NCBI GenBank assembly: GCA_021018995.1
Contig: CM037598.1
Location: 50,855,185-50,919,184, forward strand
DNA length: 64,000 bases
Source: Chloranthus sessilifolius
Lineage: Eukaryota; Streptophyta; Magnoliopsida; Chloranthales; Chloranthaceae
Direction: 5' to 3'
In this document: positions 23,004 through 45,648 of the stretch, piece by piece
How positions within the stretch are numbered: the stretch's first letter is position 1
Layout of the letters: each line of letters opens with the position of its first letter
Made by a program: the position numbers and the translations under genes
Notes under the pieces: model-generated
Told to the model about the DNA's origin: nothing
The model's input: the letters and a program-made list of their open reading frames with translations, nothing else
Databases searched by the model: none

Positions 23004-23029
23004 TGACACTACAAAAAAAATGACTTTTG

Positions 23030-23290
23030 GAGACGGTTATTAGAGACGGCTTTTCGAAGCCGTCTATAATAACCATTTATTAAAGATGGTCATTCAAAAG
23101 CCATCTCGGATGCTTTTATTAGAGACCGCTAAAGCCGTCTTCCTACATAAAATAATATATAGAGACGGTCATGACCGTCTCCATAAGTTCACTTCAAGTA
23201 TAGGTAAGTGAAAACTTTAGACACCACATTAAAATCAGTCTCTAAAACTCCCATTAACACCAACAAAGATGACTTCGAGCCATCTCCACC
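23030..23290. repeat. CACTA left subterminal repeats
   Basis: At least seven direct or inverted copies of GAGACGGCT-like motifs, several paired into small hairpins (for example GAGACGGTCATGACCGTCTC). In CACTA elements such repeats are binding sites for the TNPA-type protein. Confidence 0.85.
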
Positions 23291-23356
23291 ATTATTGTAT
23301 CATTATTGTCGTATACGGTACTTCTAGTTTTAGAGGCGAAGCCACTTACCCAATGC

Positions 23357-23364
23357 CTATATAG
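23357..23364 (+). promoter_or_regulatory. TATA-like site upstream of the UXS fragment
   Basis: CTATATAG lies about 30-40 bases before the pyrimidine-rich leader that precedes the UXS start codon. If real, the element captured a promoter as well as exons. Motif-only evidence. Confidence 0.35.
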
Positions 23365-23394
23365 CTGCTTTAGCACAACTATTCCATCGCGGCA

Positions 23395-24221
23395 CCCAAT
23401 TTTTTATTTTTTTCTCTCATTCTCCCAGACTCGGAGAGTGATTTTTTTTCCTCTCGTTTTCCCTCCCTCTCCAACAACCCTAACCTAGGTTGAGATCAGA
23501 TTCCCTTCTCTCATTTTCCCTCCCTCGCGCCAACAACCCAAACCTAGGTTGAGATCAGATCGCCAACCATCAATTGCAGATCGATGAACTGATTCCCAAT
23601 CTCAGATCGGTGAACTCCGGGCTCTGATCTCCAGATTTCTTAATCACGGATCATGAACTGGTTCCCAATCTCCAGATTTCTTAGTTGAAGTTATGATTTA
23701 GGCATTTTCGAAGTCAAAACTGCATATTAAAAAGGTAGATCTATGATTTTTTTTTATTCGAAGCATTATTAAAGCTATTTTTAAAGATCTTTGTTCGTTT
23801 CATGTGTATTTTTGGGTATTTTCTGCTTTTTTGTACTGAGAAGTTTGGGATTTAAGTGCATTTGTAGTTGAAGACTCTAGGGTTTTAGATTATGTTGGTT
23901 TATGTGTTTTTAATTTTTTTTTGAGGTGTTACTAAAGAAGTTTATTTTACTATATATATGTTAAAGTAATGCAATGTAAGTAAAGGTATTTCATCAGCCG
24001 CTATATATATATTTTTTTTGGCGAATGAGCTAATTTAAAGAGTATTTGGATGAATTTTAAGAAATTTGGTTTATTTGATTAAATGCTTATGTTGGCGAAA
24101 TTGTTTCAGGTAGCTTGTTGGAGAAGAGACCTGAACAATGGCTAAGGAATCGTCTAATGAAGATCATGTAGCAAAGCCGTCTCCGACTCCATCTCCTTTA
24201 AAAAATTTCAAATTTTTTTAC
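23395..24221 (+). pseudogene. UXS: Captured 5' part of a UDP-xylose synthase gene (UDP-glucuronate decarboxylase)
   Basis: UXS converts UDP-glucuronate to UDP-xylose for cell-wall polysaccharide synthesis in the cytosol or Golgi. Here only the beginning is present: a CT-rich leader (from about 23395), a leader intron ending in TTTCAG at 24109, and a first coding exon at 24138-24221. The exon encodes MAKESSNEDHVAKPSPTPSP followed by LKNFKFFY and a GT splice donor. Plant cytosolic UXS proteins start with the same pattern, ending SPLRNSKFFQ just before the NAD-binding SNMRILVTGGAG. That catalytic part is absent, so no enzyme can be made. Both the conserved N-terminus and intron position support the call. 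Codon changes relative to the family (FKFFY for SKFFQ) suggest decay after capture. Confidence 0.72.
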
Positions 24222-24265
24222 GTAATGCATTCTATTTTCTGTAGATCCCCTATGTGATGGTGTAG

Positions 24266-24267
<2 letters not shown>

Positions 24268-24320
<53 letters not shown>
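24268..24320. repeat. Compound (AT)n(GT)n microsatellite
   Basis: About 16 AT units followed by ten GT units, just downstream of the UXS fragment, at or near the capture joint. Confidence 0.92.
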
Positions 24321-25786
24321 TATCTTAATAATCCTAAATTGTAGATGGTTCTGGAATACTGAGTCGAGAATATGTGTATGAGAATACGTGACAACTCCAA
24401 ACTTAAACTTGTATCACACTCACTTAAAAATAAACAAACAAATATGTTGAATTTGGTTGACAATGTGAAAGCTTGGGGGTGTTTGGATGTACCCTCAATT
24501 CATGCTTCAGTGAGAGCAATAATGAGCGAAATTTATGTATCTGTAGAATTTATCCTTTTCTTGCAGGGGAATATGGGACCAAGATTTTTAATCCCAGTGT
24601 TGGTATCGTTCTTAGCTGGTTCTGCTACAGTACCATTTGTACCCGCCAGTATAAGTGGTATATACCCTTTCAGGGTTTATACCGACCTGCATTAATCCTT
24701 TTGGGGTGTATATAGCCTTGGTCCAGTAGCGAAATGCACCGGGTGATACAATCCAGTACCAATTGATATTCAAACCCATGGATGGGGGATACAAATTAAA
24801 TGATTGTCTGGCAACACTTCAAACATGCCAGTGGTGTCAATTCATGAATGATGTAGTCAGGTAGGATAAATATCTTCCCATTCACAAATTCGCAGCCATC
24901 CCTATAGTTCCTTAAGATCTCAGCGCGAATAAATAATATAGGACCATCTTCTACTAGACAAATATTACCTATAATTCTCATTCTTCTGCCGCCAGCTATG
25001 CCTGGAGAAAAGATTGCCTGTAACTTTCATTCTTCTACTACCTACCATGCATCTGCCACCCAGTGAGCCATAAGATCTTTGACGGAAATAATGTCTGAAA
25101 ATTTCGCTGTTAGTGTCACTTTTAGCAATTTATGATTGTTATTATAATTTTTATATTGATTAATGGTCTATCACCAACTTTAATAGTTTATATCCATTGA
25201 CATCGATCTCTCACAGTCAGAGGCTAATGTTTACACATGTGAAGAGCCCTGCTAGTTGTAAATGTCAGATGCTGACATGTATAACCTAGGGAAGGCCAGT
25301 GTTTTTTTTTAAATATGATAATGCAATTGATGGGATCCGGACTCTATTTATATATATAAATACAATTTTATTACAGAAGCATTTTGATCATTATTATCCA
25401 AATTCTGCATTTCTCTCATTGGTCCCTTCCTGCAAATTCATTTTTTTTGTGAATTATGAAGGACCCAGTTTAACATCCTTTAATTACTTTTATTGAATTT
25501 TTGTAATATATGTTTCCAAGCTAGTGTTTTTCAAGCCAAGAACATTAAATCTTATCCTCTGTGGCATCATGGTTTGTCTATTAACACTACCAAAATTTAA
25601 GATGATGATAGTGTGCCGTTTATGTCCTTTATCTAGAAATTTAACAGTGTATTCCCATCTTTTTTCAGTTGCTTAATTTATGAAACTTATTTTTTGTTCG
25701 TAGAAAACATGCTTAGAATGACATTTTGATAGCCTGAAATATAAAACATATCCTCCATTTTCATCCTGGTTTTTCTATCAACACTG
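24321..25786. other. Unassigned CACTA interior
   Basis: No gene recognised. A 61-residue minus-strand frame at 24796-24981 (contains FVNGKIFILPDYIIHELTP) may be a host exon scrap but matches nothing I know. At about 25540-25620 and 25720-25800 a segment containing TATCAACACTGTCAAAATTTAA is present twice in related form, the second copy overlapping the LINE fragment. Confidence 0.4.
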
Positions 25787-26215
25787 TCAAAATTTAAAGT
25801 GTCGATCATGTGACAAAAGTTTGACAAATATGACAGTCTGATTTGTGATTGATCTGGTAGCATAAAATTTGGCAAAAACTTCTAATAAGTCACCTTTTAT
25901 AATTGGCCAAAAAAATTTAAAGAAGGCAAATGTGAATCCATTTGATGGATTTGGAGATTTGTCACCATTGACTGTGATAATAGCATAAAATATTTCTTTC
26001 TCGAAAGGCCGCTCTAAAAAAATTCTATCATCATTTGAAATGCTGGGAAAAATAAGCCCATGGAGAACTGAACGCATGGGTTCTTCTTCACTGTCTAAAT
26101 TTTTGAAAAATTGCAAGACCGCTTCTTCGATAAGCTTGGCGTCTTCAATGGCTGTACCGTTGACAACAAGAGAAGAAATTCCATTTTTTCTTCGCCTTTC
26201 CGAGGCCACTGATTA
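25787..26215 (-). mobile_element. LINE fragment, start of the reverse transcriptase region
   Basis: A 140-residue minus-strand frame with RRRKNGISSLVVNG, IEDAKLIEEAVLQFFKNL and NGDKSPNPSNGFTFAFFKFF. This is the segment just before and at the start of the RT domain in plant L1-type LINE ORF2 (family form NGDKSPGPDGF). The frame then loses similarity, and the catalytic FADD box is absent. It lies next to, but in the wrong order relative to, the LINE C-terminal part at 26317-26990. Confidence 0.78.
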
Positions 26216-26316
26216 GAAAAAAAAATGGGTTTGTTATAATTTTTTCTTCATTAAACTATTAATAGTCATAAGTTTGTTATTTATCTTCATCCAAGTAATA
26301 CAACTTCGTTTTGAAA

Positions 26317-26990
26317 TCACCATCTTGTGCCGTATAAAATCTGTCCACTCCACTTAGGATTTGCAAGTAAAATAGGCATCTGAGCATATTTAAAAGAAAA
26401 TTTTCTTGAGTCTATCTTTGATAGCCAATAAAGGAAGTTGAACACATGGGATCCTAGACCATACACGCTCCTTTTTTTGAGTGGTGGGAAGGGAAATTTC
26501 ATGGATGACTCAATGTAACATCCATATCGGTGTCAGTTTGAAGAACAAATCTTCTTCCCCATTGGGATACAAGAGTTTCATCATTTAACCAAGGGTCCTT
26601 TCCAAGTTTGATTCTATTGCCATCTCCAATAATAAACTTACTGAATTTTCAAGCGTCTTCTCGAACTTGCATGATCTTTTTCCAAGCCCATGAACTACAT
26701 CAAGGTAGTCTTCATGAGCATATGTCACTAATTCAAAATTATTTGGCTACCACCTACCCAATTTGCTCAAAGAGACTGCAGATTGTGTACCAAAATCCAG
26801 CAGAGTTTCATCAAACCCACATTATTCCAATGCTTCATTCTATGCACTCCAAGACCCCATTCTTTATGGGTTTGGAAACTTTTTTTTCGACTATGGGTAC
26901 ATGGCATAGGTCATTCCTGCAGGGCATTAGAAAGGATGGATTCGATTTTCCTAAGAAAGCAAAAGATTGATGACCAATAAATTTGGTAGG
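26317..26990 (-). mobile_element. LINE fragment, ORF2 C-terminal region
   Basis: Minus-strand stretches GLGVHRMKHWNNVGLMKLCW and FIIGDGNRIKLGKDPWLND match the part of plant LINE ORF2 that follows the RT domain (family pattern GGLGI...WN.A...K..W and ..GDG..I.FW.D.W). Several stops and shifts interrupt it. Read on the minus strand it precedes the RT-start fragment, so the two are either separate insertions or were rearranged. Confidence 0.72.
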
Positions 26991-27204
26991 TATTTAGCAC
27001 AATAATTCTGAGTTTTAAATTACTTGGATCATTTTTTACCATGCAACATCCAATTCTGCTCAGAAACGATTATCCAAGTCACCAGAGGCAGCTCTTACTT
27101 CTCCTAGCGAAGAGGTAATTGTCTCACTTTCAATTCCTGTACATTAAAATTTAAATGTGCTTCATCTAGAAGTCCCATACTCCTTGCTCTACTTAATGTC
27201 ACTT

Positions 27205-27300
27205 CCAGTTGTGCCTGTAGCTCGACTGGTAGGTGCATGATGATGCAACCTTGATGTCTCAGGTTCAATCCCAGCTTCACTAACAAAAATTAATGATAAA
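27205..27300 (+). mobile_element. Possible tRNA-derived SINE head
   Basis: TAGCTCGACTGG (27218-27229) resembles a pol III A box and GGTTCAATCCC (27262-27272) fits the B-box consensus, 44 bases apart. An A-rich stretch follows. No target duplicate was identified, so the boundaries are approximate. Confidence 0.45.
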
Positions 27301-28285
27301 AAGATGTTGCTGGAGCTAAAATCTGCATTCTCCTTTGAAGTAAAAAATATGGATTTAATTTAACTAGGTAAGTGCTTTTAAAATTTGTCTAATCATTTCC
27401 TTTTTAGTTTTTCCAATCAATCTCAAATTAGAGTATGCATATTTGAATTAATTATTGTTGGTATTTTGTTGATGAATCAATTTTTTTGTAGTTTATTCAG
27501 TTATGTTACTGGTCATGCTATTTATGAGATAGGCATTTGGGTGCCAAAGGTTCTTATTTGTTTTATATAAAAGTTGAGGAATGTTGGTAATGCTCCCTCT
27601 ATTAGGCTTGTAGGCCTGACATCTCAGGTGAGACGTATTTGCGGTCCGTATGTCGGTGATCGAGCTAACCGGTCAGCTCATTGGGGTTGCAAATGTGCCC
27701 CTTGTCCTAGGAATTCAAGGGGGGGGGGTTGCCCCCGAAGAAAATTTTATAGTTGGGTCTTTTGGAAATGAGATTTCTCTCAATGGATGGCCTAGATTAT
27801 GTCTTAGGAGGCATGTTTCATTCTTGACTTGTATTATTTATTAGTATCTTATAATTTTTATGCAAATTAGATTACTGTTTGGCTTGGGTATGATAACTTA
27901 TTCTCATTGATCACAATCTCTACAAGTACCTACTATATGTAATGTTCATGGGTTTACATATTTTCAGTTTTGGAAGTAATGCAAAGGTGACCTTTAATTT
28001 GTTTGCTAACAAGTTCTATTTTGAGCTTGAGATTCTATATCAAGATGATCACTAGTTTACTATGTTGATTTCTGTTTACCCATTACCACATTGGTTTGAT
28101 TAAGGATCAAAACCACCAAGTACCTCTACAAGTGTCCTATGATGGGAACAACAAACGTTGACCATGGCCGATTGGGGCTAAAAGCACTTTTCAATATTAT
28201 TAGTTCTTAAATTTAAATGGCCATGATAGAACTACAAGTGTCCTATCATGGCGCACATGTCATAATTCTTAATTGTGCCAAACAG
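27301..28285. other. Unassigned CACTA interior, including probable BRM intron
   Basis: No gene recognised. A G run (27719-27728) sits in a more GC-rich patch at 27590-27780. The last 150-200 bases before 28286 should be intron of the BRM fragment, as they end in a CAAACAG splice acceptor. Confidence 0.4.
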
Positions 28286-28655
28286 GTCATGGCACTGATT
28301 GCATATTTGATGGAGTTTAAAGGGAACTGTAACATCTGCCACATTTTTATCCTGACAACATTGGGTACAGACTTGAGTAGGGTCAGGCTTGTGCCAAAAA
28401 TGTAACACAAAGAACTGATTTGGAATGTTAATGATGACTGTCCAATAGTGGAGCTTAGTGGCCCCGTATTAATTATGAAGTGAAACAACGGTTGATCATA
28501 GATTTGGTAGGACTTAAAATATTCGGAGCCCTCCTAAGAATAAAAATTTGCGTAACTCAATTTTAAATACTGCATAGGACTGCTAGGCATTGAGGGGTGT
28601 CAATCCTTTGACTCAAAAACCAGGCGTGCATGGAGAAAAATACCGACCAAGGCCT

Positions 28656-28735
28656 GATGGCCTTGCCTCGGCCACTTGAGGCAAGCACGTGTGGTTGCCT
28701 CGATAACGTGAGGCAAGCACCTTGCTTCGGCAACT
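28656..28735. repeat. Palindromic tandem repeats (TTGCCTC...GAGGCAA)
   Basis: Three successive units, each a small inverted repeat with TTGCCTC or TTGCTTC on one side and GAGGCAA (degenerate in the last) on the other, 27-32 bases per unit. Confidence 0.7.
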
Positions 28736-28740
28736 TGAGA

Positions 28741-28743
<3 letters not shown>

Positions 28744-28771
<28 letters not shown>
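28744..28771. repeat. (AT)n microsatellite
   Basis: About 14 AT units inside the solo LTR. Confidence 0.9.
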
Positions 28772-28774
<3 letters not shown>

Positions 28775-31282
28775 GACCTACAATATAAATACTATTGGTG
28801 TACTTGGGTTACACCAAAACCAAACCAAATCTGGCTTATACAGTAGAAAAGTGTATGAGCTTTGCAATGGGATTAAACCTTTTTTTTTTTGGCATATTTG
28901 TTTAGACATTTAAGTTGTATATCAGGCTTATACACAAGTGCTACCTTCCTTGTCGTTTAGGTGGATACATGTACAAGGGAGATCCTAGCTTTGTATAAAA
29001 ACCTAGCCTTAATTTGTTAATAAGCTGCTATGATCTTTACTTGACTACACGCGACCTTGTGAGTCATTGATCAAAGCCATGCACGCAAAGTATAAAGGAA
29101 CATGTATACAAAACGGTCTCAAAGTCTTCTTCTTCTTCTTCCTACTTTGGCAACTGCTATCACATATAGCAAACGTAAACTTAGCAAATTAAAACTACAC
29201 TCTGCTGCTACACCCTTGTACACCTTTGGATTCCTTAACTCACAACTTGCAATCCTGCAATTTCAGAAACAACCCTTGGTCTTAATGGACTCCATACATC
29301 CCCGGCTTTTATACGCACTTGGCGAACACGACGTCGATAGACGTTCAGCATCGTCGTAATGACAAGTCAACAAAAAGGTACATTAAATAATACCTTACTA
29401 TATCAGAAATTATAAGATACTCGATGTGGTGTCGATTCCCTGAGACCGAATTGGCAGCACAATGAAGCACAGGTTGCAATGGGTTCGAAACCCATATTTC
29501 TTATAGAAATACACCAAAATTTCAGCACGTAAAATAATAAGAAAACTCAATTTTGTGCAAAATATAGAAGAAATAAATTTGATGATTATACATATAAAGG
29601 ACCCAGTCAAATGCCTGAATAAACGAAGCCTAAATGGAGCAGAAAACACCCCGGCAAGCATTGTGCTTAGACCTTTGGTCAGTTTGTTAATCATAATATT
29701 TGATCCTGAACTCTAAATAGCACGATTCTTGATGCGTTGGAAAGGGGACAACGAGCCCTACAATGTTCATGAAGGAACAAATTTCTGAATCAAACATTTA
29801 TGGGGTCAAAATTGGTGACAAGTCGCGACAACATGCTCAGCTGCAAAGCTTGCCGCAGCAACCTATATTGCTTGCCACGACAACCTATATTGCTTGCCGC
29901 TGCAACCCTGCATCTGATGCACTTGGTTATACCTCTGTAAGGGGTTTGTGGTGGGATGACTTGCTGAGTTTGCCCATAAGACATGGGACCATAAATGGTC
30001 CATATTTTGGGTCTATGTTGACCCAATAAACCATTAAAAATACTGAAACTATGACCATATGTCCTAGGTATATGGTGCACATAACACGCTCATGCCGATG
30101 ACTTCATTTGGATGCGTGCAAGCACATGACTGCAAGCAAGTATCATACGTAACGCACAGCCTTGATCTTACGATAGGGAATTTACTTTACTAATTTATAT
30201 TGTGTTTTTCTCACTCTCGTCTAACTAAGCAAGTTATTACATTGATCATATAGAAATAGACAAATTGATACGTATATTAGTCATAGTCATGTATGATACT
30301 AAAATAAGTTACTATGAGTTCAATTTACTAAGAAGTAAAGATGAATATTCTAAGTATCAGTTGAGGAATGAAAATACTAGTTCGATTAATGATAGTGATG
30401 ATACTAGATATCAGTTTTGATGTGTGTGTGCATGACTATACTCAAGTTAGTTTTGAGTGTATAAATGATAATACAAATTCAAATTTGATATCTACTTTTG
30501 TATAATTATGCTAGATTCAGGTAGGAAATGAGGATAAGAACAATTTTGAATTAGTATGAACATGATAGTGCCACTTTGATAAGTGCAACTTTACTAAGTT
30601 CAGTGTTGATAAATAGTTAACTTAGTTTGGAAGAATAGTTGGTAGGCACATGCTAATTCAGTTTTTGTTTAAATATGCTAGTTTTCGTGAGGTATAAGCA
30701 TGCAAGTTCAGTTATGCTAATGTAGTTAGATGAAAATGATGATACAATCAGTTTCAATGCAAGAATATGAATAGCTATGCTAGGTTAGTATGCTAGTTCA
30801 GTATTATGCAAGTTTCAGATTATACTAGTTAAAGTTTCGATATATGAATACGAGCATATCAGTGCGATAAGATCAGCTTGACATATGTAATTACGTTAGA
30901 ACTATTGTCAAACTAATTTAGATGACTTGACATAGATTAGTAGATGAATTTGTATGTATGATGCTACTAGATGAGTTTAGAGAATGTATAATTTATGCAC
31001 ATGCTAGTTTTCAATGTATGACTATGACTGATGGTGTTAGATCAGCTTAGGAAGCTACAGACTTGATGTAGGCTTTGTAATGATTATGATGCTAGCTAAG
31101 CTTGGATAAATGAATATCAATTATTATGATAGTTACAGTCATATATGATCATGTGGGTTCAATTATTCAAATCAGTTTTGCTATATGATATATGTTCACG
31201 ATGTGCTCACATATATACAATGCATTGTTTATGTTCTGTTATCCTTGATGTCATGTACACGTCTTTAATTCATCTTGAAACA

Positions 31283-31494
31283 AGTGATCCCGCTAACCCG
31301 GGAGCTTGATATTCCGTCGAAGTGATCCCGCTAACTCAGGAGCTTGATATCCCATCCAAGTGATCCCGCTAAATTGGGAGCTTGATATCTCGTCCAAGTG
31401 ATCTCGCTAACTCGGGAGCTTGATTTTCTCGGTCCAAGTGATCTCGCTAACTCGGGAGCTTGACAAGTGATCCCGCTAACTCGGGAGCTTGATT
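31283..31494. repeat. Minisatellite, about 48-base units, five to six copies
   Basis: Units share AAGTGATCCCGCTAACTCGG followed by GAGCTTGAT, with variable spacers. Each unit can fold because CCCG and CGGG flank CTAACT. Similar repeats are common in Tekay/Del LTRs. Confidence 0.88.
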
Positions 31495-32549
31495 TTCGTA
31501 TTTCTTGTATATGTCCTATTTCAGTATGATTTCTGTACTTGTCCAGCATGATTCCTTGTCAGTATGATTTCTCATATTTATTCAGCATGAATCTGTTAGC
31601 ATGATACAATATTTGCATGATTTACTGTTTGCTATATGCTACTAGAATAAATGCTAAATGTTGCTATAATAGATATAAGGTAAGATATAATATTCTTAGT
31701 TTTGTAATTTATACATTTAGAAGTGAATTGAAAATCTAACATATAACTTAGCACTTTAAATTCCCTACTGAGCTTCGATGATAGCTCATCCTACGGCTTT
31801 ATGTCTTAGCTACAGATATTGCTCAAGACCCTGAGAACGAAGCTGATCCTACCTACCAGTCTGAGGAGGAGGTCGAGGAGGAAGGTTCTACTGAGGACTT
31901 GTTTCCTTGAGAGGTTTGAGAGAGAGAGAGATTTGTTTTTAAATATTAAATATGTATAAATAGCAGTGTGATTTGAGATAGGATACTACTTCATGTATAG
32001 GTTTTTGTTTATATTCCTGTTCAATTTGCTGCTTTAGATAAATGAATGAATATCAGTTATTACCATATTTCTACGTATCAGAGTTAATTCAATTCACTTC
32101 CGCATATATAACACTTTGTACATGGTGCCCTTGTATGATAGGATCATGTTAGGTGATCCGATGGCACGACCTTTCCCATTTAAGAGAAGGGGAAAAGTCG
32201 GGCTGTCACCGGAACTATGGTCCACATCTTATAATTGCTCCAAATGCCGTATTGGTCAATTGTAAGGTCATTTCCTTCTTATTATTTAAAAGCTGCACAT
32301 CTATTGATTTTTAGATTCTTGGAAGGTCATTTCCTTCTAATTATTTAAAAGCTTCACATCTATTGATTTTCATATTCTTCTCGCTAACATCTTTATTTTT
32401 CCAAAGTGAGCTACATAATTGGCTGCCATCTACATCATGCATATATTATGTTGGTACAAAGGATCAGCGATCAAAGTTGTTTTCTTAGGTAAGGTAAGCT
32501 AAGACATGTCTTAATTCGGCTGAGTAGGGGATGATAAAGGGCCGAGTAG

Positions 32550-32835
32550 GGGATTCGGTATTGTATTCTTTTCTGATCCAAACAAAGCAATGAAAGCTGT
32601 CACCTCACTCCACGGTAAGCTAAGACATGTCTTAATTCTATTTGTCACACTTGATTGGAGTTGAAAATATTACTTAATTGAATTATTTGAGGGGAACACC
32701 AACATGTTTATACAGGAACCATGTGCCATGGCAAGCCTCTCTATGTGTATTTCGCCCGTCACAAGGAAGTTCGATCTGATATGTTGCAGCAGCATTGTAG
32801 GGTGGAATCATTCTGCATTGATGACAGTGGCTTTG
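32550..32835 (+). pseudogene. Captured exons of a poly(A)-binding-protein-like RRM gene
   Basis: Poly(A)-binding proteins bind mRNA tails through four RRM domains. A first exon (about 32550-32614) encodes GFGIVFFSDPNKAMKAVTSL and ends at a GTAAGC donor. A second starts at 32716 after TATACAG and encodes CHGKPLYVYFARHKEVRSDM then LQQHC. This corresponds to the end of an RRM of plant PABPs (family pattern GFGFV.FS.PEEA..AV..MNGK, then GGKPLYVALAQRKEDR). The likely position is RRM4. Phase across the splice is kept and no stop interrupts either exon. Similarity ends a little before a CACTA-like terminus at 32838. Other multi-RRM proteins are possible; the HKEVR in place of RKE.R lowers certainty. 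Confidence 0.6.
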
Positions 32836-32837
32836 TA

Positions 32838-32925
32838 CACTACAAAACAAGGGGCTTACGCCGACGACTATTATTGGTAGCCGTCAGTGCAGGATCAGAT
32901 AATACCCTCCCCCTCCCCCCCTAAT
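32838..32925. mobile_element. CACTA-like terminus between two captured genes
   Basis: CACTACAAAACAAGGGGCTT followed by ACGCCGACGACTATTATTGG looks like the start of a CACTA or related element and its first subterminal repeat (GACGACTA, GCCGTC). No second end was found. It lies exactly between the PABP-like and ribophorin I fragments. Confidence 0.4.
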
Positions 32926-32969
32926 CGTGTATTTTATTTTTTTTGACTTGATGCTTCTGGTTTGTACAG

Positions 32970-33312
32970 CCAGAACTTGAAATAGAACCACGGTACCCAT
33001 TATTTGGAGTTTGGAAATCCACCTTCATCATTGGTTATGGTCTTCCCCTGCAAGATTTTCTCTTTGGGAAATCTGATGGCAGCCATTACCTTAATTTAAG
33101 TTTCGGATGCCCTTTAGCTGAGACAACAATTAACAAGTTAACCATTAAAGTAAGTTCTCTATTCGGATATGGAGCCATATAAGCATATAGTCATGTAAAC
33201 TGTTGTCTAATATTTTGACGTGATGCATAAACTGCTGTTGCAGGTAGTGCTGCCAGAGGGATCTAAAAACCCTTCTGTTGTGGTTCCTTTCCAAGTGGAC
33301 CAACAATTGGAG
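32970..33312 (+). pseudogene. OST1: Captured exons of ribophorin I, oligosaccharyltransferase subunit 1
   Basis: Ribophorin I is a membrane subunit of the ER complex that transfers N-glycans to nascent proteins. Exon 1 (32970-33149) follows a TTTGTACAG acceptor and encodes ELEIEPRYPLFGVWKSTFII, then GYGLPLQDFLF and LNLSFGCPL, ending at GTAAGT. Exon 2 (33244-33312) encodes VVLPEGSKNPSVVVPFQVDQ then QLE, ending at GTAAGT. Both are in frame without stops (60 and 23 codons). They match the lumenal domain of plant and animal ribophorin I (LEIEPRYPLFGGWKATFVIG, KVVLPEGSKD). The signal peptide, the rest of the lumenal domain and the membrane segment are missing, so the piece cannot work alone. Upstream sequence to the CACTA-like terminus is presumably intron. 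Confidence 0.85.
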
Positions 33313-33822
33313 GTAAGTCAGTGATTTAATATAGTCTATGCCAACTTCCATCTTGTTCCTTCTTGTTTTTCAGAGAGTGCTCTAGACCAGAAATCATAGC
33401 AAGGAGAATGAGATTACTATGGTTCGACACTGATTGCATCAAGGATTTGACAATTAACACCCTGCTAAGTTTTTTTAGCTTTTTTCATTTCTTCTAAACT
33501 AGAAAACTAAAGTGTTTTTTTGAAATTGTAAACTAAAGTTATTCCCTGGGAGATTGGATCAAAGAGATCTTTGGCCTTATATCTGAATATTAAAAGGGTT
33601 GTGGGCAATATCATACCATCCGTTGATGCTGTAGGGGAATCTAGACCCATGTGTAAAGTAGGGTTGGCTTAGGGGATTGTAATAACGCTGAATTTACTAA
33701 ACATTATTGCCTAAGGGGGATTGTAATTACAATGATTTTACTAAACACTAATGCAGCAAGAGTCAAGATGTTCATTTGGATGGTGTGTCCTTATAAAATA
33801 AAGATTTGTGACAAGTTAGAAG
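33313..33822. other. Unassigned; begins as ribophorin I intron
   Basis: After the GTAAGT donor no further ribophorin exon is recognised. There is no other gene or repeat end that I can support. Confidence 0.4.
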
Positions 33823-34104
33823 TTGTACTTCCACTTGGTTAATGTGCAAAAAAGAGGGACAAAAATGATGAACCACCTATTTAGCCATTTCTTGATCATG
33901 TTTGTGGAGCTAACTTCATGGGATTTCGGTTCAGGATTGATTAAGAAACTGGTGAGTAGTGATAGATTGAGGAAAATGGTGAAGATATATGGTTTGAGTT
34001 GGAAAACACCTCTTGTATCCCCTTCTGCTGAATTGGAGAACCCTGAACTTGTGGTGTGGTCTGAATTAGTTGCTGAGTTGCTCGATTTGGATTCTAGGGA
34101 GTGA
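33823..34104 (+). pseudogene. Uncharacterised open frame, possible gene fragment
   Basis: A 93-codon plus-strand frame. Its second half (LVSSDRLRKMVKIYGLSWKT and LENPELVVWSELVAELLDLD) has protein-like composition and alternating charged and hydrophobic residues typical of helices. I do not recognise the family. Its orientation matches the other captured fragments and it sits between two of them, so it may be a sixth capture. There is no visible splice site or ribosome context that decides the start, and it could be a chance frame. Confidence 0.3.
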
Positions 34105-34613
34105 GTGGCTCTGTTTGTGCATCCTTGTTATTTAGGTGTTTTTGGTTTATTGCATTTTGGAATTCAGTATAATGAAACTTCATTGACTGAAACTGCCTAT
34201 CATGGGTCCACAAGTTGGGTAGAATCTCCATGAAATTTTTATTTCCCAGAGCTCTATAAATAGCCCTATAACCATCAGTTCACCTTTGCAGAAGACGAGG
34301 CTTTTATAGAAGGCCTTGATCAAGTCTAGTATTGCTGAAATGAGGAGTTCCCTTCTTTCTTTTTCACCATTTCACCACTTCAGTATGGAATTGTGCATCC
34401 CTAACTTTATGATTCTGCAGGTATATTGTGATACCTAATTATAGCTTCATACAACCGCTATAAAAGATCCTTCTTGTGATCAACTGGTGCACTTGGCGAA
34501 CGTTGGGGCAACACTTGCCGTGTGCCAGCATGCTGTTTATGATTGTCAAGTTGCTTGGCATTTTGCAGAGGTTACAATAAAAAAAAAATCATTAACCCTC
34601 TTCAATGTTGGCT
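34105..34613. other. No feature recognised
   Basis: Plain AT-rich sequence within the CACTA. A short A run lies at 34579-34587. Confidence 0.4.
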
Positions 34614-34790
34614 AATATATCCTACTAGCAAGAACGTTACATAAATAATACTAAATCTAATATCCTACTAGCAAGAATGTTACATAAATAATACTAAATC
34701 CGATATCCTACTAGCAAGAACATTACATAAATAATAGACTAAATCTAATATGCTCTAAGCAAGAACATTACATAAATAATAGAATAAATC
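34614..34790. repeat. Tandem repeat, four copies of about 45 bases
   Basis: Units share CTAGCAAGAACNTTACATAAATAATA followed by CTAAATCTAATAT; the last copy is the outer part of the hairpin element that follows. Confidence 0.85.
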
Positions 34791-35122
34791 TGGACAGAGG
34801 ATCCTCATTGGAACAATTACAAATGTTTATCAGAGCAAGATAACCAAACAAATTCTTTAAAGAAGTTAAACTTCAAAAGTCTTCATATAGTTCACCATCT
34901 GAGAACCACATGGAAAAAAGGAAAATAAAAAGAAAGAAGATTAAATTTTAATTTTCCTTTTTGCCATGTGGTTCTCAGATAGCGGAATATTTGGAGGCTT
35001 GAAGTTTATCTGCTCTATGGAATTTGTTTGATTATCACACTGTTATAAATTAGTAATTGTTCCTATGTTGATCATACATCCAGATTTAATCTATTACTTA
35101 CATAATGTTCTTGCTAGTTGCC
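34754..35122. mobile_element. Foldback (hairpin) element
   Basis: Two arms of about 170 bases are inverted copies of each other: GCAAGAACATTACATAAATA on the left and its reverse near 35095-35115 on the right; CATCTGAGAACCACATGG on the left matches CCATGTGGTTCTCAGATAG on the right. A loop of about 30 AT-rich bases separates them. Arm identity looks near 80 percent by eye. This is a MITE-like foldback able to make a long hairpin RNA. Confidence 0.78.
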
Positions 35123-35270
35123 TGTTCAATCTCTTTTTCTTAATGCACTAGTTTAGGTTGTTTGAATTAGAGAGGTCTCAGATCTTAATTGTTGCTTGCA
35201 GTGTTGGAAATTCCAGTTTATAGGTGATACAACTATTCTTTTGATATTTCTGATCTATATTACTTAAGTC

Positions 35271-35642
35271 GCAATTCACTTGATTCATTTTCGAGTTCGC
35301 AATTCGCTAATCTCATGCGAACCCGATTCGCCAATGGTAGGATGATCTGTTATTTATATTTAATGTTTTTTATAAGCTAACAATAAGATGGAATATATTA
35401 AATAATATTAACTTTTTAAAACAAAACAGTTGTAAGCGTAGTTGGTTTCCGAAGTGATTGCTTTGGTTGTTGGTTGTATATGTTGTGTGTTCGATTCTCC
35501 CCACCTGCATTTCCTATTTAAAGCATTTTTACAACTAAATACCCTAGTTCGCCCATTCGGGTCGAATTTGACCAAATCAAACTACAAATTGGGTTGCTCC
35601 AACCCAATTTGCAATTCACTTAGTGGAGTGGCGAATTAAGTA
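35271..35642. mobile_element. MITE with TACTTAA(G/T)TCGC termini
   Basis: Imperfect terminal inverted repeats TACTTAAGTCGC and (reversed) TACTTAATTCGC bound 372 bases. Inside, GTGTTCGATTCTCC (about 35488-35501) resembles a pol III B box. No coding capacity and no clear target duplicate. Confidence 0.55.
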
Positions 35643-36177
35643 ACATTGTTTCTGATTACTTCCCTAAATGTTAAATTTGTGTTTTAAATTTGTGTTCTAA
35701 AGTTCTTCACAATAGCTTTCTACTATTTCCCATGTGTTAGGAATTTGTAGGCAAATGAACTTGAATCTAAATACTTTCGTGGTACATATATATCATGACT
35801 TGTAAAAAACCTTAATGCAGGTATGCATGACTGGTCAGTTGATGCAGAAAAGCGATGTGTATAGCTACGGTGTCATTCTTTTGGAGCTTTTGACTGGCAG
35901 GAAACCGGTGGATCATACAATGCCCCGAGGACAGCAGAGTCTTGTTACTTGGGTAAGCTTTTATTGATATTGCTACTTATTTATCTTTGATTATTGAGAT
36001 GGATAAGATTTTTTAGTAGCAAATGCTTATCTAAGATTTGTTTTGTAGGCCACTCCAAGGCTTAGTGAAGATAAAGTAAAACAATGTATAGATCCAAAGT
36101 TAACGGGAGAATATCCTCCAAAAGGCATTGCTAAGGTCTCTCTCTCTATCTACACACACATGAATACATCAATTGTA

Positions 36178-36375
36178 CGTGGGGTTGCTTTTTATAACGG
36201 GGTATCCAGCCTCTTAAAGCACCCGACTAAGTCCACGGATACGTGCAACACCCGCACATCACACGTACCAGTCAATAGGGATAAATCCCTTGAGTGGCGA
36301 ACAAGGGGTGGGATTCAAACTCAGAATCTCCGCTTCTTGAGCTATGGCCCTGGCCACTGTGCCAACACCCCATTG
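36178..36375 (-). mobile_element. tRNA-derived SINE in the kinase intron
   Basis: Minus strand reads GTGTTGGCACAGTGGCCAGG (A-box-like) followed by GAGTTTGAATCCC (B box, 36311-36323 reversed), and ends in a T/A-rich tail. Layout resembles plant Au-type SINEs. The flanking intron has a CTCTCTCT and ACACAC tract. Confidence 0.65.
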
Positions 36376-37207
36376 GTTTGTAAGTGGGGATGTTTGAAAA
36401 CCCAATTACGGATATGCATTGTGGAAGCTTTCTAAATTGGAAAATTGGAATTTGAAAATGAGATAATTGGTCTACATAGATCATACATATGTTGGGATGG
36501 TTGAAAATGAAAACAGGTAGTGCACATTTTTTTTCTTTTCAAACATGATAGGTGCAAATAAATGCTGTATAGAAAGAATTCCATCAAGCACCGAAACATT
36601 ATATTTTGGAGTAGACTCCGTTTTCTCAAGATGGAGCCTAGCTGCAAAAGGTATGATTTATTGGGTAATGGACCTGCTTTCTTCCAACGGGGAAATTGTC
36701 GCTAAACTGCAGTACGGTTTTTTGGTGCTTTGTGAAATATTTCCTCATTGTTGTGTCTATTTATGGGTTATCTGATCTGAGTTCTCACTCAGTCATCGGA
36801 ATCCCTAATGTTAAATATTTATGTCAACATTGGTATCCACTTATATATGTTCAGCACATAGTTAATGTTACGAAAACGTGAGGGATTTCTTTTTTCTTAT
36901 GGCTTTTTTTTCAAACGCCAAAATCAATAAGCCATTGTGTACTAAATACACTTAATTCAACTCTATCAATGCTTTGACTCATTTTCTGAAAACCTAAAAA
37001 AGAGTTCGATCAGATGCTACTACAACAAATTCAAACTCGAAAAATTCTATGAAACTGCCTGACTTTTCGAGCCTACATGGATGGGTCCCACTGAGACTGA
37101 GTCTCAGTTTCAAAATTTTGAATTTAGAGTGAGTATTTTCCGGTGCTCACCCATATCAGGTATACTTCGCTCAGTTTGCAAACTTGGTGCAATATTTGTT
37201 CTCTCAG
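36376..37207 (+). other. Kinase intron remainder
   Basis: No further exon or element recognised. It ends in a TCTCTCAG acceptor at 37207. Confidence 0.5.
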
Positions 37208-37376
37208 CTGGCTGCTGTTGCAGCATTATGTGTGCAGTATGAATCCGAATTCCACCCAAACCTGAGCGTTGTTGTCAAGGCACTCCTACCTCTTCTCACG
37301 CAGAAGCCCCCTGCTCTAGCTCCTGATCCCAAGAGTTAAAAATATACATCAACGGCGGATTTTTTCTGTTACTTTT

Positions 37377-39253
37377 TGTTGTCGCTCCAAGTGTGCCATA
37401 ATTGTGTGCATTATGAATCAAAAATTAAAGAATTAAGGAATGCTAAATTATATGGATGTTAACTTATGAAAGGGATATCAGCACATTGGGGCTAACACTG
37501 GCCTGCAAGATCAGGGCCAGTTGTAGCAAGTTTTAAAAGTAAGTATTTCAAGATCGTCCACAGAGAAGTTTGTCTAAAATGAGAGATAAACCTCCAGATC
37601 TGTGCTACCAGATCTGGCTCCTTAATTATCTAAATAAAGAATAGATTAGTGTTGGGTTTTGTCACGTTTAACTAAAAGCAAATAAAGAAAAGAACTAACT
37701 ACGTGATCCAGATCCGAGTTGTGGAGGTGTTTAAAATAAGACAAATGCAGAAATAATAGCTTCATGTACTTTAGCCTCTGAATTTTAATGGAGAATCAGG
37801 AGTTCCACAGAGCAGATTCAATCTTCATCTGCTACCAAAGACAGATGTAAGAGAAATAAATCCAATTAAGGAATAGGTTTAGACTTATGTGATTTGTCAT
37901 CATCATCAGTGGCCTATTCTTTATTTGAACATGAACATCATTGTAATCGCTTGAATTAGGTTACCAACGCTAATTCGCATACAGGATGATGAATGAAGGG
38001 AAGTTTGATGTGGATGAGTGAATCTAAAGAAGTCTAATGCACTAAGGTGATCTTTCAGAACCCTCGACATGTCTCCAATGGAGAAGACACAAGTTACAAA
38101 GAACCTTTTAAAATCCAACGTTACAATTATAGAGCACGGCTTTAGAGAGCCCTCGACTTATACGAGCTTCTCGAGAGCCCTCAGATTCTGATCTTGAATC
38201 CAAACTTGAAGTACAAATCACTGCAATGGCTCTCAAAGGTAAAATACAAGAAGGGATTACAGGGGAATCGGATGAGCTCGACGAATGGGGAAACAGAGAT
38301 GAAAACTCTAAAACTGGATGCCTCAATTGGGCAAATGTCTTCTCAATTTATAGCTTTCCTCTATCCCGCACAAGGTGAATTGACCAATCGAAGTGCTCGA
38401 TCCGGATTGCCCAATGGTCATTGAGCACGGGGATCCAGATCTGTTCTCGGCCAATGAAAATGCTCGATCCGTTCACCAATCAGCGTTAGAAGCATCAATT
38501 CATTATGGGAATTCAAAAGTTTGCTCGAGCTTCTAGAAGCTCCCGCCAAGTGATTTCATCTTTGGGTTTTCACGTGGGGCGGAATATGCCCTTGGTTTGT
38601 GCTTGGAATCTTTCGGAATGTCTCTGGGCTTTTAATTACATTGGGGCGCATGTAGAGTTTACTGAAATACCCTTCAAAGTGGTCTAAATCGATGCCATTT
38701 CGCAGAGTTTAAGGGTCTTTTCGCAAAGTAGTTTGGCTCGAAGTTCTTTTCGCAAAGCATTTTGGTTTCGTAAGTTCTTTTCGCAAAGCATCTTGGCTTG
38801 AAGTTCTTTTAAAGGACTTTGGCTTCGAAGTTCTTTCGCAAGGACTTTGGCTTGAAGTTCTTTTCGCAAGGACTTCTCTTCTTTCGCAGAGGTAAATCTT
38901 CTATTCGAGGAGTGGTTTCTTCTTTTCGCAAAGATCAAGGTGGTTTGCGAATAGTAAAAGTTGGTTGCGAATTGGACACTAGGCTCCCAGTCTTCTTTGC
39001 GAATGGCACTCTCGCTTTTTTCAGGTCTTGGTCTGCTCTTTTAGACCCTTTTTAGCCATTCCGAGGTTGTTTCTTCAATCCATCTTTCACTTGACATGAG
39101 TTGTCGACTTTTTGATCATTTTAGGATGCTTTTCGGACTTGGACTGTCTAATTGGTTAGTCAAAATGCACACTAAAGCACTTATTTAGTCTTCTCAAGGG
39201 TGTTTCAAAGCTCATGTTTAGGGGTAAAAAATGATATTTTTCACTACTTAACA
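37377..39253 (-). repeat. LARD 3' LTR
   Basis: 1877 bases, TGTTGTCGC to CTTAACA. A TATA box CTATAAAT (minus) lies at 38346-38353 and a field of CTTTTCGCAAAG-type repeats at 38735-38880. The right edge abuts the polypurine tract (minus TAGGTTTGGGGGTG, about 39254-39267). Confidence 0.88.
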
Positions 39254-40955
39254 CACCCCCAAACCTAAGCTTTGCTAGTCCCTGAGCAAAGAAATATAAA
39301 AGCAAAATAAAGAGCCACTTTTGTAGGAAGCACAGGTGCATTTAGCATATGCAACAAGCCTTTTAAACCCCTAGGGGATCCCTAGAGGAGGAGTGAAGTC
39401 TCCGAGGGTTTTCAAGAAGGTACCCACAAACTTCTCCATGAAACAGTTAACATCGATTGCAATATTATCAAATGAGCAATCAAGGAGCAGTTAGTTACTC
39501 TTGAATCAATGATGAAATGTAAAATTTGATTATTGTTTGCACAGAATTTAAACATTTATAAACCTCATGAATGTTTCAATATTTCCAACTGTGAACAGTC
39601 ATAGAAAATCATACAAATGTGCCAAAGAAGAAGCTCATCCTATGGATAAAAATTAGGTTATAAGTCATACTTAAGGTGCTCAAGTTCCAACCCAAATACT
39701 CACGTATACTCTCATGTTGTTTTTGTTGAGGGTTCATTTTCACTCTAGCTCAAGAGCGCTTACATCTCCCAAATGGATCTGTAAGCATGAGCATAGGCAT
39801 GATTCTTAGGCAATGGCATCATTGACATCTCTCACCATAGATTGGGTCCTTCTTATCTCCACATGACGACTCACTCAACTTTGGATCACAAGGGCTTTTA
39901 ATCTAGGTTTGTTTGTATGGCTTATGGATTGAAGTTTCAAGGAAAGGCGCTTTGAACGAGGTTTGAATTTGAGAACTCGGGAAGTGCAGGAGATGGTTCA
40001 TGACTCCACTTTTTGAGTTTAGCTTCTTTCTTCTTCTTTTCGAGATTCTCACATTCACGGTGATCAGTTCTTTCTTTGATCTTGCATTTTCAACATAAGG
40101 TCCTTTTTTGCCTTTTGCTTGTAACTTTTTCACATTGTTTGTCTCTTCTTTTCTCGGTCACCATATTGCCCTGCTTTTGAGGTATTTTCTCTTCATTTTC
40201 TTGATGTTGCCCGAAATGGTCCATCTTCAGTTCTTTCTCCTTTACCTCTGAATTCTCGAGTGAGGGAAAGGCTGAATTGGTTCCATAGGTTCAGTGCACG
40301 TACTTTTGAGTATTTTTGATGAAGAATTGTAGGATTTACTCAAATGGGGTACAAACAGGGCAGAGATTTTTCTTGGTTGGTTCTCATAGGTTCAAGTCTG
40401 TCAAAGAAGGCCTTGATCTTTTCCTCGGCCATGAGTGTCAAGCATTTGTTACTTGTTTTAATTTGGAGTTTCCTAACTTCTAGTGGATCTAATGCCTCGG
40501 CCAATCCTTTGAATCGGAAAAATTGCCTCAGTCACTCTTCAAGATGGAAAATATATGGGCTCAATTCTCACCGGTTATGGTTTTTCCTTGAGCTTTTAAG
40601 TATATCTTTACCTTTTTCTCTTCCTTTTGACTTACTACGTCGATACCAGATGTTTTATGGTGTAATCATCATGGAAATGTAGAATATCGCAAGGTTTAGA
40701 ATGTCTAAATTTGGCGGAATTTTAAATTTTCTAGTTGTCATGATTCTTAAGTAAATTAATACATTTCCTAATTACTTAGGTGATTCTGCCCTTTATGTTA
40801 ACTATTCCTAGGCAGGACTTGTCTGCCACACCCCCAAACCTATGAGGAGCAGTGTCCTCACTGGTTCAAAGGTGGTGGACAATTATTAGGGGAAGACAGG
40901 AGAAAAAATAATAGCATGGAGAATTGCAGAAAGCAAATTGCATGAACCAGAAATT

Positions 40956-41492
40956 TTACAGAAAATAAAAGGAAAAGAGGGGGGAAAGGGATGGGGCTAG
41001 TATGGGGGTGGCTACCTCCTCTGGGCTGGGAATGGGCAAGTCTGCCAGGAGTAAGGCAAGGTTGGGTGAGAGGGGTGGGGTTTGAATAATAGGGGTGGTG
41101 GGTGTGGAGGGGGTATCTGGAATGGCAATGATAGATGGAGGGCTATCTAGGATAGGGGAGGGGGTGGGGGTGTAAGGGACCAGTTCAATGGCGCGAGGTG
41201 CAGCAGAAGAGCCATGACCTCGGGGAGGAAGGGCAGGGGCTGGCTGAGGCTCAGCGGAAGTTTGAAGCTCCTCTTCTACTGCAGCTTCTGTAAATGGTTC
41301 TCGTTCAATTCCAGCAGAAAGAGCAGGCTCGTTCACCGCAAAGAAGATGTTCTTCAATGGGCTCAATACACAGTGAATCAAAGAAGAAGAAGTTGTGCAA
41401 AGTGCAGCTAGGGCTCCAGCTTCCCTCATTCCCCTAAACTGGGCCTGGCAGAGGGTGGCAGATCTAGGGAGGGGGATGGAGTGGTAGGGCAC
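40956..41492 (-). other. Pro/Ser-rich open frame in LARD (178 codons)
   Basis: A minus-strand frame, half of it rich in Pro, Ser, Thr and Ala (for example PYTPTPSPILDSPPS). No known domain, no transmembrane segment and no nucleic-acid-binding motif. It could be a relic of a gene carried by the family or a composition effect. It is the longest frame in the LARD. Confidence 0.35.
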
Positions 41493-42902
41493 TAAGGGGG
41501 GCCCAGCTGGGGGGTGGGGGTTAAGAGAGGGTCAGTAGGATAAAAGAAGAAAGAAAAACTAAGAACAGAAAAAATCTAAACTATATGCAGCAGAAAATAA
41601 AAATGTAAAATTGAATATATGAGCAAGGAAATGAAAAACATGATATACAAATGCAAGAAAAATCAACAAAACAACGCTAGAATCGCTAAAAAAAATAAAA
41701 TCTAAAAATAGCGGTGATTGCTATGCAAATGGAAGGAAACTAATGCTAATAATAGAGAAACAAGAAAACAAGGTAAGGGATTGCATACAAAGTTTTAAAA
41801 AAAATAAAAAAGTGTTGATACAAAAACAGAATTTGTGAATGCAAAATAGGAAAACAAAGTTAGAAACTAACTATACTCACAGAAAAATGACGAAAATTAG
41901 TAAAACTAGGACACATTAACCTAAGAAAGAAAAAAAATCGATCTAAAAGCAATTTGAAACTAAAATTTCTAAAACGAAATCTAATGCCAAATGATTCATA
42001 AGATTCATAAGATTCATAAGATTGACCCTTTGTTGATGAAGCATGGGAGCACTTATTAAAAAGAGTTCATACACAAATGAGACCCATTTATGATGAAGAA
42101 ATCAAGGAAAATAAAATAAGTGGGTCCATTGAATATTCAAAACACTATGATTCACTACTCATTATCCTACATGATTCCTTAAAAAAAATGATCTCAAAGA
42201 GGTCCGATGGGAAAAGTGGATGCAAATGGAGAAAAAATTTATACGAAAGATATATATATATTTTTTATTTTTATAATTTTCTATTTTTTTATTTTTTTAC
42301 TTGTTTTGGATCACCAGCTCAACAAGAGCCCTTATTTACTATCTGAAAATAATGAGAAACAACTAAGAGATTTTCTATTTGTGTTTTCATTTTCTTTTAT
42401 TTTGTATTTGGTTTTGTAAAAAATCAAGATGCCTAAAAGATGCTAGAAATTATAATCGTAACAAACAATAAACACAATGTAATCTGGTTCTCAAGAATTT
42501 AAAAATAGAAAATGAATGCCAAGGAGAAGGATGCAAACTCAAGCAGATCTGCTCCACTTTGGTCCAGATGCTCCTTGTTGACTTGCTCCAGATCTCGCAA
42601 ACATTCAAAACTGCTATGAGCACTTATTCAAGTATTGATAAAAATAAAAGAAAAACTCAAAGCACGCTTGCCCAAATTTGATAAAAGACAAAAGAGTGGC
42701 AGATTTATTCAAATAACTAGAAGGCAAAGAATAAAACTCGAAAAATAATAAAAAAAAAAAAAAAATTTCGTCAAAGAAACAAAGTTTTCTATACAAAATC
42801 TCAGAGACATTTAATCAAGCACTTGGAATGCAAAGTGCAGGTTTAAAGCAAAAATTAAAAATAAATGAAAATAAACATAGGTCTATCTATTTTAGAACAA
42901 AC

Positions 42903-42921
42903 TTCCCCGGCAACGGCGCCA
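42903..42921 (-). other. LARD primer binding site, tRNA-Asp type
   Basis: Minus strand TGGCGCCGTTGCCGGGGAA, identical to 5461-5479, six bases from the LTR. The retained site is needed for cDNA synthesis in trans. Confidence 0.88.
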
Positions 42922-42927
42922 AAAACT

Positions 42928-44813
42928 TGTTGTCGCTCCAAGTGTGCCATAATTGTGTGCATTATGAATCAAAAATTAAAGAATTAAAGAATGCTAAATT
43001 ATATGGATGTTAACTTATGAAAGGGATATCAAGACATTAGCTAACACCGGCCCGCAAGATCGAGGCCGCAGGTAGCAAGTTTTAAAAGTAAGTATTTCAA
43101 GATCGTCCACAGAGAAGTTTGTCTAAAATGAGAGATAAACCTCCAGATCTGTGCTACCAGATCTGGCTCCTTAATTATCTAAATAAAGAATAGATTAGTG
43201 TTGGGTTTTGTCACGTTTAACTAAAAGCAAATAAAGAAAAGAACTAACTACGTGATCCAGATCCGAGTTGTGGAGGTGTTTAAAATAAGACAAATGCAGA
43301 AATAATAGCTTCATGTATTTTAGCCTTTGAATTTTAATGGAGAATCTGTAGTTCAACAGAGCAGATTCAATCTTCATCCGCTACCAAAGACAGATGTAAG
43401 AGAAATAAATCGAATTAAGGAATAGGTTTAGACTTATGGTCGTGATTTGTCACGCATCATCGCCTAGTAGCCTATTCTTTATTTAACATGAACATCATCA
43501 GTAAATGCCGCTTGAATTAGGTTACCAACGCTAATTCGCATGGGATGATGAATTAAGGGAAGTTGGATGCGGATGAGTGAATCTAAAGAAGTCTAATGCA
43601 CTACGGTGAACATTCAGAACCCTCGTCATGATTCCAATGGAGATCACACAAATTACACCAACCTTTTAAAATCCAACGTTACAATTACAGAGCACGGCTT
43701 AGAGAGCCCTCGGACTTACAAATCGAGCTTCTCAGAGCCCTCGATTTACGCCTTGAATCCGAACTTGAAGTACAAATCACTCAATGGCTAAGGTAAAATA
43801 CAAGAAGGGATTACAGGGAATCGATGAGCTTTCGACCGGAATGGGGAAACAGAGATGAAAACTCTAAAATGTGGATGCCACAATTGGGCAAATGTCTTCT
43901 CAATTTATAGCTTTCCTCTATCCTCGCACAAGGCTGAATTGACCAATCGAAGTGCTCAGATCTGGATTGCCCAATGGCTATTGAGCACGGGGATCCAGAC
44001 CGTTTCGCCAATGAAAATGCTCGATCCGTTCACCTAATCAGCGTTAGAAGCATCAATTTCGTTATGGGAATTCAAAAGTTTGTTTGAGCTTCTAAGTTCC
44101 CGCCAAGTGATTTCATCTTTGGGTTTTCACGCATGGAATATGCCTTTGGTTTGTGCTTGGAATCTTCCTAATGTCTCGGCTTTTAATTACATTGGGCGTC
44201 AAGAGTTTATCGAAATGCCCTTCAAAGTGGTCAGTAAATCCCAAGATGCCATTTCGCAGAGTTTAAGGGTCTTTTTCAAAGTAGTTTGGCTCCGAAGTTC
44301 TTTTCAAAGCATTTTGGCTTCGAAGTTCTTTTCGCAAGCATCTTGGCTTCGTAAGTTCTTTTTTTCGCAAAGGACTTTGGCTTCGTAAGTTCTTTTCGCA
44401 GAAGGACTTTGGCTTCAGTTCTTTTCGCAGGACTTCTCTTCTTTTCGCAGAGGTAAATCTTCTATTCGAGGAGTGTTTTCTTCTTTTCGCAAAGTTCAAG
44501 GTTCTTTGCTAATAGTAAAAGTTCTTCTTGAATTGGACTCTAGGCTCCCATTCTTCTTTGCGAATGGCTCTCTCTTTTTCGTGTCTTTGTCCGCTTTTTA
44601 GACCCTTTTTAGCCATTCGAGGTTGTTTCTTCAATCCATCTTTCAAACTTGACATGAGTTGTCGACTTTTGATCATTTTAGGATGCTTTTCGGACTTGGA
44701 CCTGTCTAATTGGTTAGCTGTAAAATGCACACTAAAGCACTTATTTAGTCTTCTCAAGGGTCTTTCAAAGCTCATGTTTAGGGGTAAAAAATGGTATTTT
44801 TCACTACTTAACA
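42928..44813 (-). repeat. LARD 5' LTR
   Basis: 1886 bases with the same ends as the 3' LTR. TATA box (minus CTATAAAT) at 43903-43910; repeat field at 44280-44430. Confidence 0.88.
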
Positions 44814-44818
44814 CTTTT

Positions 44819-45319
44819 CTCATGTCAGATTTCGATTTGTGCAGGTTTTGGGTTTGGTTTTATTGCTTAGAGAATTGATGTGGGATTTAATAGGGCTCTT
44901 CATTTTAATTCTTCTTCTCTCTAATTGTCTTTACATTTGGTTTTGGCCCCGGTGCCGGAATGACAATGCAACTACGTGATGTTGGCGTCCACAAAGCCAT
45001 GTATCATACAGAGTGGATATGAACTGAAATTGTCTTTGTATAGAAATTTGTTGTTTCCTTCCATGTTTTTTTTTTTTTTTGAAATCTTTTTTTTTATATA
45101 TATTTGATCATTAATAATGGTTTTGAGTTTGTCACTAGTTTTCTAATTTATCAGGTTGTATGTATTCTGACCTACACTTTGAACATGTGAGTATGTAAAT
45201 GCAGGCTATGAATTTTCATAAAAAAAAATAAAAATGCAGGTTATAAATTGTACTTCTAGGCAATATGGTTCTTGTCTTCTTGGAGTAAAAAAAATTAAAT
45301 AGTATTAAAAAAACAATTA
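44819..45319 (+). other. Continuation of kinase 3' UTR and CACTA interior
   Basis: Sequence resumes after the LARD target duplicate with T-rich, UTR-like character. A T run is at 45066-45080. No open frame or repeat end. Confidence 0.5.
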
Positions 45320-45648
45320 TTCAACAGGAGATCACTTATTAGATATGGCTTTAAGCTGTCTCCAATAACATCATATCACTTATTGGAGACGGTCAAAAGT
45401 CGTCTCCAATAACAAGAGATGACTTATTAGAGACGACTTTAAGGTGTCTCCAACATATCTTTGGAAACGGCTTATGGCCGTCTCCAATAACCTTCACTAT
45501 TAGAGACGACTCCCATTTGGTCTCCAAAGACAACGGAGACGGGACTATTTGAGACTACATGGAAGCCGTCTCCAATACTATTGGAGACGGCTTACACACC
45601 TTTGGAGATGGCCAAAAGCTGTCTCCAATAAACACATTTTTTGTAGTG
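45320..45648. repeat. CACTA right subterminal repeats and terminus
   Basis: At least ten GGAGACGG / CCGTCTCC motifs, mostly as close inverted pairs (for example GGAGACGGTCAAAAGTCGTC), ending in CATTTTTTGTAGTG. They mirror the left end. Confidence 0.88.

Follow-up and report, generated by a model that had tools for sequence, protein, structure and literature searches.

The 22,642 bp between positions 23007 and 45648 of the window (the whole stretch of 64,000 nucleotides of Chloranthus sessilifolius DNA analysed here) are, with good confidence, a non-autonomous Pack-CACTA transposon that captured fragments of host genes, moved into a retrotransposon and was later invaded by retroelements. It has CACTA termini, target-site duplicates, an empty site within the window, intron-bearing fragments of host genes and nested insertions. 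Gene-carrying CACTA elements are already well known, and this one is a decayed and nested member of the Pack-CACTA class. At present it is probably a decaying passenger without function.

Termini, target site and surrounding retrotransposon

The boundaries of the element are as follows (no strand is assigned to any of them).

23004..23006: left target-site duplicate, TGA
23007..45648: whole CACTA element, 22,642 bp, defined by its termini, the TGA duplicates and the empty site at 54070-54864
23007..23406: left end, with its terminal inverted repeat and 9 copies of the subterminal GAGACGGC-type motif in both orientations
45249..45648: right end, with 12 copies of the subterminal motif and its terminal inverted repeat
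45649..45651: right target-site duplicate, TGA

The termini, CACTACAAAAAA...TTTTTTGTAGTG, lie exactly at 23007 and 45648, and TGA flanks each of them. Target-site duplicates in the CACTA superfamily are 3 bp long. The terminal inverted repeats begin CACTA, and CACTACAAAAAA is found at both ends; inverted identity between the ends extends over the first 12 bp only, and they diverge further in. None of the papers in the collection searched contains the terminus string CACTACAAAAAA. With up to one mismatch and both strands counted, the outermost 400 bp contain nine copies of GAGACGGC at the left end and 12 at the right, compared with means of 0.12 (left) and 0.125 (right) and a maximum of 2 in 200 dinucleotide shuffles per end. 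The motif is absent from four control stretches of 400 bp, two internal and two flanking. Everything that the sequence-only reading had claimed for these ends, namely CACTA termini, TGA duplicates and dense subterminal repeats, is thereby borne out. A related motif, GGAGACGG, is matched 31 times across the window when one mismatch is allowed. Of these matches, 7 and 10 fall within 500 bp of the respective ends; of the remaining 14, six are inside the element, with three clustered at 24177-24189, one at 26620 and two in a nested LTR element.

When the two flanks are joined via a single TGA, they align without interruption to a retrotransposon copy at 54070-54864 (797 bases, 702 of 798 columns identical, 4 gaps; 88%). 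This is an empty site, represented by one copy inside the window, and the uninterrupted alignment means that the element is a real insertion. Duplicates failing to pair in related sequences had been named beforehand as grounds for abandoning the reading; within the window, which is the extent of the comparison, they pair. A further retrotransposon copy, at 50141-50401, can be aligned to the left flank alone (74%).

In the surrounding DNA, one retrotransposon is present as adjacent minus-strand copies at 18354-22910, 45949-50401 and 50404-54466, which are about 84-85% alike. The CACTA element interrupts one of these minus-strand copies, between 23006 and 45649. Three of the retrotransposon's frames, all from other copies, match integrase, SH3-like or reverse-transcriptase domains in Pfam, and frame 21451-21864 and flank 22600-23006 of the interrupted copy have no Pfam match. 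We take the retrotransposon to be gypsy-type and, from its position, the insertion to be on the gag side. Elsewhere in the window, the plant snoRNA snoR71 has a match at 4770-4873 (43.1 bits; gathering score 40). The plus strand at 56410-57021 carries a 203-codon open frame without a Pfam match, which resembles a MULE N-terminal region.

Captured host-gene fragments

A six-frame Pfam scan of the element, run as twelve stop-masked half-frames of 11.5-11.7 kb of DNA each, detected no transposase family at E<=0.01, a threshold that badly decayed remnants could escape. The claimed absence of a transposase agrees with this. The sole family detected by the scan was ribophorin I; the other host fragments become detectable once exons chosen by eye are joined, and their E-values apply to these selected peptides. 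The candidate fragments, all on the plus strand and in the order previously described, are listed below with the filler found at one of their junctions.

24138..24221, plus: possible coding exon start, putatively read as the N-terminus of UXS (UDP-xylose synthase), 28 codons
28286..28327, plus: SNF2/BRM-type exon A, first part (VMALIAYLMEFKGN)
32216..32266, plus: SNF2/BRM-type exon A, second part
32405..32488, plus: SNF2/BRM-type exon B, acceptor misplaced for frame, ends in TAG
32493..32517, plus: junction filler, 25-nt exact copy of the PABP intron 5' splice-site region (32614-32638)
32527..32614, plus: PABP-like exon (fourth RRM)
32716..32798, plus: PABP-like exon, completing the fourth RRM, with its 3' end placed approximately
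32970..33149, plus: ribophorin I (OST1) exon
33244..33312, plus: ribophorin I (OST1) exon
35821..35952, plus: PTI1-like kinase exon
36049..36135, plus: PTI1-like kinase exon
37208..37339, plus: PTI1-like kinase last exon, stop TAA

Of the 16 PDB sequences that the joined kinase exons match at E<=1e-10, the top one is 5xd6_A ('Protein kinase superfamily protein'), with E 7.5e-53 and 81 of 102 aligned residues identical; the label PTI1-like is our assumption. The ribophorin I fragment matches its Pfam family at E 2.6e-26 and a glycosyltransferase subunit 1 in the PDB at E 2.7e-15. The PABP piece matches PDB 6r5k_D at E 7.3e-25 when summed across four RRMs and at 7.4e-9 for the fourth alone, and its peptide also matches other RRM proteins, five of the nine PDB sequences at E<=0.001 not being named PABP. 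The joined SNF2-type piece contains a Pfam SNF2 domain (E 3.9e-6). Its best PDB match of 59 is SRCAP (7.9e-9), which is not a BRM protein, and SNF2L2 follows at about 6e-7; we presume this ATPase piece to derive from the plant protein BRM and not from another SNF2 ATPase. The identity of 24138-24221 as UXS is likewise our presumption, from a reading of its 28 codons, and these gave no PDB match at E<=10 and no Pfam match. The GGAGACGG triple at 24177-24189 falls within this stretch, either by chance or as part of a transposon end.

The element thus carries non-transposase host coding DNA, with four of the five claimed genes supported. Of the proposed 'at least five unrelated host genes', the kinase, ribophorin I, PABP and the SNF2-type ATPase are backed by searches; UXS, too short for a good test, has no match. 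The broader proposal of a Pack-CACTA with several unrelated host fragments is supported, and the empty site adds strength to it.

The introns of the kinase, ribophorin and PABP fragments retain GT/AG, and their presence inside these fragments indicates that capture occurred at the DNA level. The earlier view that splice junctions are kept holds for the two ribophorin exons, for all three kinase exons and for the single PABP intron; it does not extend to every fragment, and the BRM piece is broken. BRM exon A is split by a 3.9-kb insert. The only AG upstream of exon B sits within the first codon that the frame requires, and splicing there would give AAG-TGA.

Between the ribophorin and kinase pieces, frames 33820-34101 and 34445-34612 have no Pfam match, the latter being bounded by splice-like borders; both are candidates for additional captured exons. 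A long, MITE-like foldback occupies 34620-35150, on the upstream side of the kinase exons (-164.8 kcal/mol, z-score -13.2). Two other candidates were set aside. The open frame 29733-30026, considered as a BRM piece, lies inside the 3.9-kb insert and was rejected, with a best PDB E-value of 0.46, no homologue and no Pfam match. The minus-strand frame 25787-26212 has no Pfam match and adjoins a weak zf-RVT match below the cut-off (E 0.014), and no claim is made for it; with its surroundings it looks, on our assumption, LINE-like.

How the fragments may have been joined

The border between the BRM and PABP pieces preserves a possible trace of their joining. The 25-nt filler stands at GTAAG directly after BRM exon B. 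Among exact repeats of at least 16 bp outside the nested insertions (simple sequence filtered), only one is longer, a 26-bp repeat within the foldback. This copy at the border suggests repair synthesis with template switching.

Capture could alternatively have proceeded by repeated fusion, in which two neighbouring CACTA copies move as a unit with the intervening DNA, a model proposed for Arabidopsis Pack-CACTA and set out for Pack-TYPE elements in PMC8903248 and PMC13317346. We consider this a genuine but tentative possibility. In its favour, the stretch at 32838-32890, between the PABP and ribophorin pieces, holds CACTACAAAACAAGG at 32838 followed by inverted GACGACTA/TAGCCGTC, an arrangement resembling the end of another CACTA family. 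However, none of the element's own ends is seen between the fragments, the GGAGACGG triple can be read either way, and template switching would better account for the duplicate at the BRM/PABP border. A more specific proposal is that conserved 5' splice sites supplied the microhomology for the template switching that joined captured genes in this element. It takes the GTAAG after BRM exon B as a donor and draws on the identity of 25 nt, GGTAAGCTAAG..., and we regard it as unlikely.

Nested insertions and the size of the element

Two insertions lie within the element.

28328..32210, no strand assigned: nested solo-LTR-like insert, 3,883 bp, starting TGTAACATC and ending CTGTCACC, with GGAAC at 28323-28327 and 32211-32215
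37377..44813, probably minus: nested LTR retrotransposon, 7,437 bp, LTRs at 37377-39253 and 42928-44813, duplicate CTTTT

The LTR retrotransposon lies 37 bp past the kinase stop and is flanked by CTTTT; its LTRs measure 1,877 and 1,886 bp. A primer-binding-like TGGCGCCGTTGCCGGGGA adjoins its right LTR, which points to the minus strand. No Pfam domain was found inside it, internal frame 40956-41531 included, and consequently it is probably non-autonomous. Aligned with MAFFT, the two LTRs differ at 146 of 1,839 sites (7.9%, K2P 0.084); aligned with BLAST, they differ at 95 of 1,836 (about 5%, by subtraction). Substitution rates used for dating LTRs are 1.3e-8 and 7e-9. Since the two alignments disagree, the age of the nested element is given only as a range, at these rates roughly 2 to 6 million years. 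Another stretch of the window, 5405-7617, is about 72-82% like these LTRs and is probably a related LTR.

The 3,883-bp insert shows no internal direct repeat except a short tandem array at 31281-31497, with units near CAAGTGATCCCGCTAACTCGGGAGCTTGAT. Its insertion into the BRM exon most likely postdates capture. Without both nested insertions (one duplicate copy removed with each), the element measures 11,330 bp, or about 11.3 kb. The '22.6 kb' originally proposed is therefore true of the span, about half of which is nested retroelement DNA.

Transcription and coding potential

A further possibility is that the element gives rise to a spliced chimeric transcript running from the UXS side through the kinase stop, which might act as a regulatory RNA and silence the donor genes. 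The four supported fragments are all plus-strand, GT/AG sites are preserved at the introns of the kinase, ribophorin and PABP pieces, and the gene fragments of the soybean CACTA element Tgm-Express1 are reported to be spliced into chimeric transcripts (Zabala and Vodkin 2007, PMC1947982). Yet five fragments would be co-oriented by chance in 1/16 cases. An insert of 3.9 kb interrupts the BRM exon, TAG closes exon B, and the frame stops early: read as DNA, the UXS frame hits a stop after 39 codons, and if the UXS exon were spliced to BRM exon A, the frame would enter the 3.9-kb insert and stop inside it. Further, the present element lies in a retrotransposon, unlike Tgm-Express1 in its transcribed host gene. 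On balance we judge such a transcript, which the sequence-only reading had suggested from the co-orientation, improbable; no test made here supports it. A chimeric protein also appears unlikely from the sequence, because of the acceptor and TAG defects of BRM exon B and the stop that ends the UXS frame after 39 codons. Weakest of all is the notion that there is no single transposon, and that two unrelated CACTA ends face each other around ordinary genomic DNA: the identity of the ends is indeed limited to their first 12 bp, but the TGA duplicates match, the same subterminal motif is common to both ends, and the uninterrupted homologous empty site contradicts this reading, making it very improbable.

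A proposed history

For the preferred reading, a captured, moved and later invaded Pack-CACTA, we propose the following course of events. The element took up pieces of four or more unrelated host genes as DNA, introns included; this may have happened through template switching during DNA repair or through the fusion of adjacent CACTA copies. A CACTA transposase from elsewhere, acting in trans, would then have moved the element into the presumably gypsy-type retrotransposon, creating the TGA duplicate. The element itself received two insertions, presumably afterwards and in a conjectural order: the LTR retrotransposon at 37 bp past the kinase stop, and, in the BRM exon, an element of which a solo-LTR-like remnant is left.

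Comparison with known elements

As described in PMC1947982, Tgm-Express1 is 5.7 kb long, carries five gene fragments and resides in intron 2 of the transcribed F3H gene. The present element, in contrast, comprises about 11.3 kb plus nested insertions, lies in a retrotransposon and is known from its DNA sequence. It resembles the Pack-CACTA elements of Arabidopsis, maize and rice (PLoS Genet 2022, PMC8903248) in having an CACTACAA terminus and a target-site duplicate and in lacking a transposase. For those elements, donor loci are described, as are sister copies that form a cluster, whereas the present one is known from its window. CACTA elements with captured host-gene fragments have also been reported in Chenopodium (PMC8978399) and grapevine (PMC2528002, where the captured DNA includes a 3' untranslated region). 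The examples described there retain transposase coding sequence or domains, unlike the present element with no detected transposase family.

With its empty site in the same window, the Chloranthus element is a clean case of a plant transposon that put together parts of mutually unrelated housekeeping and signalling genes, only to be dismantled by retroelements later. Its BRM/PABP junction still shows legibly how such parts might become linked, whether by template-switch repair or by fusion of neighbouring elements.
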